From: Kineosporia babensis
Lineage (GTDB): Bacteria > Actinomycetota > Actinomycetes > Actinomycetales > Kineosporiaceae
Length of the DNA: 64,000 nucleotides
Assembly (NCBI RefSeq): GCF_021129305.1
Contig: NZ_JAJOMB010000031.1
Span: 21,491 to 85,490 of the forward strand
Direction: 5' to 3'
Shown one piece after another: positions 61,702 to 63,534 of the stretch. The position numbers and the translations under genes are program-made. Positions within the stretch are counted from its first letter, which is position 1. Each line of letters begins with the position of its first letter. The notes beneath the pieces were generated by a model, which did not search any database, was not told the DNA's origin, and saw only the letters and a list, made by a program, of their open reading frames with translations.

Positions 61702-61784
61702 TTGGCTTGCCGCGCCGGTGCTCGTCCTGTGACTCTTGTTCCCAGCACGAAGCGCCGGTGAGAACCTCTCGCCGACAACGATCT

Positions 61785-61950
61785 CGTGCTCACAACCGAG
61801 TTCCGAAGCGCAGACGCGGGTTACTTCGACTCTTAATCGGCGGGTTGCGGGTTCGAGTCCCGCCGCCGGGACCTCATCCCGGCGTAGCTCAACTGGCAGA
61901 GCAGCATGTTCCTTCGTCGCCCCGGATCTCGGAACCCGGTTGTGAGCACG
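61785..61950 (+). ncRNA. Y RNA-like element with circularly permuted tRNA-Lys(CUU)
   Basis: The ends pair: 61785-61806 with 61929-61950, 22 positions, 21 Watson-Crick plus one A-C. Inside is a complete tRNA in swapped order. Positions 29-73 lie at 61827-61871: anticodon loop CTCTTAA at 61830-61836, variable GGGTT, T-stem GCGGG/CCCGC with TTCGAGT, acceptor CGCCGGG and A73. After a 6-base loop (CCTCAT), positions 1-28 lie at 61878-61905: acceptor CCCGGCG, TA, D-stem GCTC/GAGC, D-loop AACTGGCA, A26 and GC. All stems pair: acceptor 7/7, D 4/4, anticodon 5/5 across the break, T 5/5; total 73 nt. A further helix 61813-61820/61911-61918 links it to the end stem. The Ro60 gene starts 18 bases later. 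Bacterial Y RNAs beside Ro60 are known to mimic tRNA; exact RNA ends are inferred. Confidence 0.85.
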
Positions 61951-61968: not shown

Positions 61969-63534
61969 ATGACCAAGTTCTCGTCGAAGGCTGCGTTGCT
62001 TTCGCGGCCGCGCAGCGACGGTACTGCTCGTACCTATGAGGGCGGGCTCGGCTACCACCGCGACGCCAAGTCCGAGCTGTTCCTGCTGGCCGTGACGAAC
62101 ATGGTTTCCGAGAACACGTTCTACGAGGGCGCGGGCGAGCGGGACCAGCGTTTCCAGGATCTGGTGCAGGCCGTGACGCTCGATGACCCCTCGTGGGTGG
62201 CGCGTTTCGTTCCGTACCTGCGGGGCCCGATGAACATGCGGTCGGCTGCTCTGGTCATGGCTGCTGAATATGCCTTGACGTTGCGTACTGCTCCGGATTC
62301 TGTGCGGGCGCAAGCGCCTTCGGTTCGCTCGGTGATCTCCAGTGCGCTGCAGCGTGCGGACGAGCCGGGCGAGTTCATCGGCTACTGGAAGCTGCGTACC
62401 GGTCGGGTAACGCTGCCGGGCGGGGTTCAGCGGGGCGTTGCGGATGCTGTGGACCGGCTGTTCACCGAGTACGCGGCGCTGAAGTACGACGGCAAGAGCC
62501 ACGCCATCCGCCTGGGCGACGTGATTGAGTTGACGCACCCTGCGGCGCGGGCTCCCTGGCAGGGCCAGCTGTACCAGTACCTGCTGGATCGCCGTCACCA
62601 CCCGGAGGACGTTCGTGCCGACCTTTCACAGTTGCCCATGATCCGCGCCAACCTCGCCTTGGACCAGATTCCTTCTTCTGAGCGTTCTTCCGTCCTGCGC
62701 GGTGCGAACGCTGCGAGCTTGCTGAAGGACGCCGGGTTCACCTGGGAGGAGCTGTCCGGTTGGCTGGGCGGCCCGATGGATGCTGCGGCTTGGCGGGCGG
62801 TGCTGCCGTCGATGGGCTTCATGGCCCGGCTGCGTAACCTGCGCAACTTCGACAAGGCCGACCTGGCCGCTTCGGACGTCGCCCCGGTCATCGCCATGCT
62901 CACCGACCCGCAGCGCATCGCCCGCTCACGCCAGTTGCCGTTCCGGTTCCTGGCTGCTTCGCGGGCCGCGTCCGGATCACGCTGGGCCGAGCCGCTGGAG
63001 CAGGCGCTCAACCACAGCCTGGCCAACGTCCCTGCTCTGCCGGGCCGTACCTTGATCCTGGTCGATCGCTCGGTGTCGATGTGGTCACGGCTTTCGCGGC
63101 GCTCGGACTTGCTCCGGGCCGACGCTGCCGCCATTTTCGGTACGGCCTTGGCGGTCCGGGCTCGGCGGGCCGACCTGGTGCAGTTCGGTTCGTCCAGCCG
63201 GCGGGTCACGTTCGGCCGGAGCGAGTCGGTGCTGCGTGTGCTTGACCGCTTCGAGCAGTTGGGCGGCACCTACACCGCCGCTGCGCTGCAGGAGCACTAC
63301 GCCGGTCATGACCGGGTGATCGTGGTGACCGACGAACAGGTGGCGCAAGGCCAGGACGTGGACCGGGCGGTGCCTGCACAGGTGCCGATGTACACCTGGA
63401 ACCTGGCCGGGTATCAGATCGGGCACACGCCTTCGGGTAGCCGTAACCGGCACGTGTTCGGTGGGCTGAGCGATGCCGCGTTTGCGATGATCCCGCTGAT
63501 CGAGGCGGGTAGGTCGCAGGACTGGCCGTTCTGA
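61969..63534 (+). CDS. rsr: Ro60 (TROVE domain) RNA-binding protein
   Basis: 521 residues. The TROVE domain of HEAT-like helices (about 15-345) includes GGLGYHRDAKSELFLLAVTNMVSENTFYEGAGERDQRFQDLVQAV and DVIELTHPAARAPWQGQLYQYLLDR. A von Willebrand A-like domain follows (about 360-521) with the metal site LILVDRSVSMWSRLS (DxSxS) and VIVVTDEQVAQG. It forms the ring that holds Y RNA and misfolded RNAs and helps RNA surveillance or repair. ATG 61969 with GAGGAA at 61957-61962 is chosen; the earlier frame start at 61906 lies inside the Y RNA. The preceding RNA element is its likely partner. RtcB ligase and archease are not in view. Confidence 0.93.
   Translation: MTKFSSKAALLSRPRSDGTARTYEGGLGYHRDAKSELFLLAVTNMVSENTFYEGAGERDQRFQDLVQAVTLDDPSWVARFVPYLRGPMNMRSAALVMAAEYALTLRTAPDSVRAQAPSVRSVISSALQRADEPGEFIGYWKLRTGRVTLPGGVQRGVADAVDRLFTEYAALKYDGKSHAIRLGDVIELTHPAARAPWQGQLYQYLLDRRHHPEDVRADLSQLPMIRANLALDQIPSSERSSVLRGANAASLLKDAGFTWEELSGWLGGPMDAAAWRAVLPSMGFMARLRNLRNFDKADLAASDVAPVIAMLTDPQRIARSRQLPFRFLAASRAASGSRWAEPLEQALNHSLANVPALPGRTLILVDRSVSMWSRLSRRSDLLRADAAAIFGTALAVRARRADLVQFGSSSRRVTFGRSESVLRVLDRFEQLGGTYTAAALQEHYAGHDRVIVVTDEQVAQGQDVDRAVPAQVPMYTWNLAGYQIGHTPSGSRNRHVFGGLSDAAFAMIPLIEAGRSQDWPF

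Follow-up and report, generated by a model that had tools for sequence, protein, structure and literature searches.

At positions 61785 to 61950 of a 64,000-nucleotide stretch of Kineosporia babensis DNA, which in its entirety we call the window, an inverted repeat encloses a tRNA whose two parts stand in exchanged order, beside a gene for Ro60 (Table 1). The end of the predicted RNA and the Ro60 ATG at 61969 are 18 nt apart; another in-frame ATG, at 61906, falls inside the RNA and was not taken as the start, and several Ro60 relatives align from residue 1. The TROVE match of this protein bears out an earlier sequence-only reading, which had described a Y RNA-type stem next to Ro60. Searching NCBIfam with the window's Ro60 was uninformative. 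Two PDB entries titled TROVE domain-containing protein (9l5y_A and 9kop_A) match it with an E value of 1.7e-30.

Table 1. Features of the permuted RNA and its Ro60 neighbor, in window coordinates
Feature	Position	Strand	Basis or remark
Short Y RNA-like hairpin with Ro60-stem core, without tRNA domain	61745..61789	+	putative function
Predicted YrlA-type Y RNA, whole	61785..61950	+	fold z −5.6; full-length covariance-model match
Basal stem, 5′ arm (14 + 7 bp)	61785..61806	+	folding, stem recount
Ro60-stem core, 5′ side, conserved, with UACUU junction	61807..61826	+	alignment of relatives; helix 2
tRNA positions 29-73 (3′ part, first in order)	61827..61871	+	sequence, ARAGORN
Anticodon arm, positions 29-41	61827..61839	+	loop 32-38 CUCUUAA at 61830-61836; conservation
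tRNA positions 42-43	61840..61841	+	pair across the swap with 27-28 (61904-61905)
T arm	61847..61863	+	ARAGORN, covariation
Acceptor stem, 66-72 / 1-7	61864..61884	+	closed by A73 and the 6-nt loop CCUCAU (61872-61877)
tRNA positions 1-28 (5′ part, second in order)	61878..61905	+	D arm at 61887-61902
Ro60-stem core, 3′ side, conserved	61906..61928	+	alignment, covariation
Basal stem, 3′ arm	61929..61950	+	folding, stem recount
Ro60 (Rsr), TROVE and vWA, 521 aa	61969..63534	+	PF05731, E 6e-11

The 3′ half of the tRNA precedes the 5′ half, and both together make one full cloverleaf. When the parts are rejoined in conventional order (61878-61905, then 61827-61871), ARAGORN calls the resulting 73 nt as tRNA-Lys(ctt) with four fully paired stems, with or without an appended CCA; the swapped parts, their coordinates and the perfect cloverleaf are thus as the sequence-only reading had given them. 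By reading, U8, A14, G18G19, A21, U33, UUC54-56 and A58 are all in place. The junction falls between positions 28 and 29, inside the anticodon stem, and the anticodon arm has a 5-bp stem and a 7-nt loop. At 7 bp, the acceptor stem has tRNA length. In genomic order, ARAGORN finds no tRNA across the window, including no contiguous tRNA-Lys(CUU) gene, and Rfam at gathering thresholds returns zero matches to it. A promoter and terminator scan was uninformative. The outer stem that had been proposed exists, with 21 pairs (14 at 61785-61798/61937-61950 and 7 at 61800-61806/61929-61935) rather than the 22 first counted. Ahead of the long RNA lies a short hairpin that folds on its own at −20.4 kcal/mol (61743-61790); because nucleotides 61785-61789 (CGTGC) also belong to the long RNA's basal stem, full closure of one stem in a transcript precludes that of the other. 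The same hairpin stands ahead of the long RNA in the congener G001. The counterpart in G005 has a T arm and an acceptor, and its D arm is absent.

The region 61785-61950 folds at −83.7 kcal/mol (z −5.6), and none of 200 shuffles does as well. This minimum-energy fold recovers the basal stem, the acceptor helix and most of the D arm, but the anticodon and T arms are absent from it; an alternative anticodon/T pairing is favored by approximately 5 kcal/mol (−83.7 versus −78.5 kcal/mol, with 27-28/42-43 not enforced). Support for the tRNA fold comes from covariation and not from energy. We rejected a chance origin of the permuted cloverleaf: a strict stem-only search gives one match in both strands of the window and 0 matches in 252.5 Mb of first-order Markov sequence searched on one strand.

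We built a covariance model from 55 relatives, the window RNA itself among them; rows were picked by at least two of the three pairs at 29-31/39-41 and a preceding CTT or CTC. In this alignment, 97.4% of cells are paired and both sides have changed in 23 of the 34 pairs; none of 500 shuffles reaches any of five measures, and slid controls are 31 to 48% paired. As the row choice used the 29-31/39-41 pairs, helix 3 is partly selected, and helix 4 is not. The pairs 27-28/42-43, which span the swap, played no part in choosing the rows; they are paired in 108 of 110 cells, 19 of which have changed on both sides, compared with 35 to 74% paired and at most 2 such cells in slid controls. The sequence-only reading had named a lack of compensatory changes in relatives among the results that would count against it, and such changes are present. 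Helices 1 and 2, the long stem that joins the 5′ and 3′ ends, covary as well, with 7 of 8 pairs changed on both sides and 92% of cells paired in helix 2, the Ro60-stem core. The D stem is invariant in the 55 rows and so holds no covariation information. Every helix that varies covaries, including the one spanning the swap.

To place this RNA among its relatives, we scanned genome contigs with the window's Ro60 and retained the best 80 of the 121 loci that matched, all actinobacterial by title and mostly Streptomyces, a choice that leans this first set toward near relatives; with L134 removed as a tRNA array and the window added, it comprises 79 fetched loci and the window. Upstream of Ro60 in these best 80 of 121 lie 95 permuted tRNA-like RNAs, of which 55 have an anticodon arm and 40 lack one by the rule used. 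In the arm-less RNAs, by reading, the Ro60 stem appears to continue from the anticodon-stem position. A stricter detector, which ignores loop sequence and demands all five anticodon-stem pairs, finds 54 complete forms in 52 of these 80 loci. In a second sample, drawn from the 54 of 394 genomes of the class that have TROVE and taking all 60 other TROVE places, 37 complete RNAs lie in 31 of 60 loci, or in 30 once the doubtful L253 is set aside. Viral contigs hold 21 complete RNAs in 14 of 26. The window RNA had been called unusually complete, a description that these frequencies, in the best 80 of 121 relatives and in viral contigs alike, do not bear out.

We also read 8 named phage Ro60 loci among 42 matching records; five have a permuted RNA and two a complete one, namely Gordonia phage VanLee and Xanthomonas phage Olaya. 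Olaya, a phage of Xanthomonas, carries two, so the complete form extends beyond actinomycetes and their phages. Of six genomes from the window's genus, three carry Ro60 together with a full-length RNA match and the other three carry neither; in one of those that have both, Ro60 lies 3 kb further on, past another gene. We did not take covariance-model match counts across genomes as prevalence, because the five weaker matches that were checked (L138, L148, L182, L183 and L185) sit in tRNA arrays. In such arrays (for example, L182, L183, L138 and L148), the model matches the gap between tandem tRNAs, that is, a 3′ half, a spacer and the next 5′ half, with scores of up to 68 bits. An origin of the permuted RNAs from two neighboring tRNA genes is thus possible, and the tandem tRNA gap is a plausible birthplace for them. 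Permuted tRNA-like RNAs with another basal stem (GGGTGGGCCGGAG...) occur in L146 (G008) and L147 (G006). The L146 RNA is complete, with the loop CUGUCAA, and the adjoining open reading frame resembles, by eye, another TROVE protein.

To ask what the anticodon loop keeps, we assembled 115 distinct domains (119 rows); L253 and L228 matches beyond 2600 were left out. These domains have 46 loops and 30 different triplets at positions 34-36, while U33 is kept in 111, A38 in 106 and C32 in 101. Position 37 follows position 36: G37 occurs in 21 of the 23 domains with G36 and in 3 of the 92 without it, the remainder being mostly A37. A comparable rule holds in the host's 51 distinct tRNA genes, where G37 is found in 10 of 12 with G36 and the other 39 all have A37. 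Formation of t6A37 by TsaD needs U36A37A38, and formation of m1G37 by TrmD needs G36G37. Eight of the 115 domains have U36-C37 loops, which fit neither rule.

This 36-37 rule was conceived on the first and viral sets, and the second sample served as its test. There, G37 accompanies G36 in 7 of 7 cases and appears in 2 of 29 without it (p = 4e-6). Two of these 36 rows (L252 and L268) are identical to first-set rows; leaving out rows at least 90% like any first-set row gives 7 of 7 versus 1 of 17 (p = 2e-5), and distinct loops that the first set lacks yield 9 of 10 versus 1 of 12 (p = 3e-4). We then mapped the loops onto a Ro60 tree of 92 loci, taking only the last RNA found at each locus (15 of 102 loci carry two or more) and dropping the 6 of 98 loci that had no Ro60 match. 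The fewest changes at positions 32 to 38 are 10, 2, 31, 41, 21, 24 and 5, respectively, which indicates that drift is greatest at 34-35 and that 36-38 tend to follow the pattern of genuine tRNAs; a small number of loops depart from U33 or A38, and positions 36 and 37 are themselves not slow. Among 10 independent pairs that differ in G36, G37 follows in approximately 9 and does the opposite in none (median p = 0.004). Retention of U33, of A38 and of the 36-37 rule in a bacterial Y RNA loop appears to be new and is seen also in the second sample and the tree. Loop stacking or descent could account for part of the rule. The earlier suggestion that tRNA enzymes read this RNA is plausible in light of the loop conservation and the behavior of the rule on the tree.

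The likeness to tRNA-Lys does not extend to a conserved decoding identity. The anticodon is CUU in the window and CCU in two congeners, whose loop is the window loop with one change, at position 35, on the same stem; with 30 triplets in use overall and an ordinary tRNA-Lys(CUU) gene in the host, we rejected the tRNA-Lys identity given by the sequence-only reading. Positions 8 to 48 of the window RNA are identical to the host tRNA-Lys(CUU) at 38 of 41 positions, a figure that does not mark decoding, because the CCU congener scores the same against that tRNA. We also considered that the arm had recently been copied from host tRNA genes, a step that is not needed: the congeners differ by one base, and the host tRNA-Arg(CCU) arm is a poor match (26 of 41).

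An acceptor helix of 7 or 8 bp is present in 106 of the 112 complete forms and in 71 of the 105 arm-less ones, so the anticodon arm goes with a fuller tRNA body. In complete forms the closing loop is 2 to 11 nt long. Among the 182 Ro60-linked RNAs that have a 7-bp acceptor, 19 encode N73-CCA, against 3.5 expected from shuffled loops, and this excess is perhaps a trace of tRNA ancestry; the window's closing loop reads A-CCU. An enzyme could also add the CCA after transcription. A translating tRNA is unlikely, given an unconserved anticodon, an acceptor closed by a variable loop, an ordinary tRNA-Lys(CUU) in the host and the absence of CCA from most of the RNAs.

In its TROVE neighbor, the long stem joining its ends and its tRNA-like domain with T arm, D arm and acceptor-like helix, the window RNA fits YrlA, the tRNA-mimicking class of bacterial Y RNA (Chen et al. 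2014; Wang et al. 2018, 6CU1; both as cited in the parts of PMC8394870 and PMC7790460 drawn on here). According to these parts of the two papers, Ro60 binds YrlA via the stem, YrlA mimics the D, T and acceptor arms and is a substrate of DusA and TruB (the last in PMC8394870), and Ro60 can be tethered to PNPase. For Y RNAs of this type in other species, PMC8394870 reports transcription, tRNA modifications and PNPase binding. The window RNA differs in adding an anticodon arm, joined across the swap, whereas the published description, in the part of PMC8394870 used here, names only D, T and acceptor arms. In our literature search no bacterial Y RNA was described as having an anticodon arm, a weak indication because the primary YrlA papers lay outside its scope. 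The YrlA class and its tRNA-like domain are already known; the complete form with a rule-keeping loop appears to be new, with a reservation for those primary papers.

Other RNAs resemble it in part. The host tRNA-Lys(CUU), so similar over positions 8 to 48, differs in its acceptor and T stems and its normal gene order, and the RNAs of the congeners carry CCU. tmRNA lacks an anticodon arm and is aminoacylated, while the window RNA has a closed acceptor and an anticodon arm. The two are alike as non-coding RNAs with a tRNA-like part, as described for tmRNA in the part of PMC8394870 used here. The permuted tRNA genes of red and green algae and archaea, as the portion of PMC3978253 consulted presents them, likewise have the 3′ part before the 5′ part and a short loop at the acceptor end; unlike them, the window RNA is without a conserved anticodon or CCA, sits in a Ro60-type stem and has its junction at 28/29.

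We propose, at about even confidence, that 61785-61950 is a predicted YrlA-type RNA with a complete permuted cloverleaf that likely acts as a Ro60-held stand-in for tRNA, bound and probably modified by tRNA enzymes and non-translating. We infer that the RNA is transcribed, that its basal stem is bound by Ro60 and that its tRNA body is bound by enzymes. Ro60 would hold the RNA by the basal stem, the core of which is conserved in sequence, and T-arm readers of the TruB class and D-arm readers of the Dus class would bind the tRNA body and TsaD (t6A37 on U36A37A38) or TrmD (m1G37 on G36G37) would read positions 36-38 of the loop. Ro60 would thereby be tethered to, or compete for, tRNA-handling proteins, and the closed acceptor would bar the RNA from aminoacylation and hence from translation. 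Mimicry of a whole tRNA would be the simplest extension of the D, T and acceptor mimicry of YrlA. A bolder and more tentative version, to which we give a low probability, is that Ro60 in actinomycetes and phages carries an uncharged, fully modified pseudo-tRNA whose arm TsaD and TrmD treat as genuine, that the anticodon diversifies under conflict and that the RNP captures anticodon-arm readers or toxins; if true, a non-translating tRNA would be kept under tRNA modification rules.

The anticodon arm might instead be a structural third arm of an ordinary YrlA, aiding folding and placement of the Ro60 stem with a loop that nothing reads. The free 34-36 triplet fits this idea, as does the account of YrlA function without an anticodon arm in the part of PMC8394870 drawn on here, and the arm is missing from 40 of the 95 RNAs in the first set (the best 80 of 121), so Ro60 function does not invariably depend on it. 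U33, A38 and the G36-G37 rule, all of which persist in the second sample and the tree, would be superfluous in a simple spacer, and we regard this explanation as possible but rather unlikely. The loop could also be a decoy that, within its tRNA body, occupies anticodon nucleases during stress or phage attack. Positions 34 and 35 change fastest (31 and 41 steps on the tree), copies are present in phages and viral contigs, the same idea has been raised for Salmonella YrlA (PMC7790460), and phage tRNAs reportedly differ in their anticodon loops as a defense against these enzymes (PMC10264068), as stated in the parts of these papers used here. Salmonella YrlA was not cut, a result that its authors, in the same part of PMC7790460, deem compatible with competitive inhibition; because anticodons differ within the genus, no one target would be served, and we think a decoy role improbable.

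The sequence-only reading had raised the prospect that the RNA is opened and ligated into a real tRNA, in effect a permuted tRNA gene cut at 28/29 and in the acceptor loop to yield a working tRNA-Lys(CUU). The rotated sequence is a perfect tRNA-Lys and, as described above, matches the host tRNA-Lys(CUU) at 38 of 41 positions, the acceptor has 7 or 8 bp in nearly all complete forms, N73-CCA exceeds its shuffled expectation more than fivefold and the genome has a gene for the RtcB ligase elsewhere. Nothing speaks directly for such processing, the anticodon is not conserved even within the genus, the host has a normal gene, 163 of 182 RNAs lack N73-CCA (the window included, with A-CCU) and closing loops range from 2 to 11 nt, so that we hold it to be very unlikely. 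The idea that the locus is a remnant of two truncated neighboring tRNA genes, or chance, draws on the covariance-model matches to a 3′ half and the next 5′ half in tandem tRNAs; given the lack of matches in 252 Mb of simulated sequence, the covariation of stems across the swap and the retention beside Ro60, we find it hardly credible.

These findings bear on the effector side of bacterial Y RNA, which is poorly understood: a conserved arm that obeys tRNA rules at positions 36-38 and not at 34-35 points to readers, either modification enzymes or anticodon nucleases. More than 100 natural domains separate the rules of anticodon-loop recognition from decoding.

The covariance model also matches a second permuted RNA in the same genome, on the minus strand beside a DUF7873 gene (G000:C24:14636-14701; L137 1501-1566). 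This pairing of protein and permuted RNA, without Ro60, recurs in L297-L345. A literature search for DUF7873 did not meet the name in the texts covered, NCBIfam searched with the protein was uninformative, and a PDB fold search with its AlphaFold model (pLDDT 80.5) gave no match at E values up to 0.001. DUF7873 matches came from 25 of 296 genomes of the class. In all 24 loci examined that have a full-length gene, one or two permuted tRNA-like RNAs lie just downstream on the same strand; the 25th genome has two partial matches and no such RNA. Permuted RNAs also accompany DUF7873 in 17 of 19 viral contigs and in 3 of 4 named phages read among 73 records. With a 7-bp acceptor required, N73-CCA occurs in 26 of 65 DUF7873-linked RNAs versus 2.6 expected from shuffled loops. 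This pairing merits its own study.

Two phage records have an annotated tRNA gene that overlaps a permuted Y-like RNA beside a Ro-like gene: tRNA-Arg(tct) in VanLee (L348 1177-1248) and tRNA-Ser(gct) in Streptomyces phage Alone3 (L347 1196-1269). Both are probable misannotations, and phage tRNA counts can be wrong on this account.
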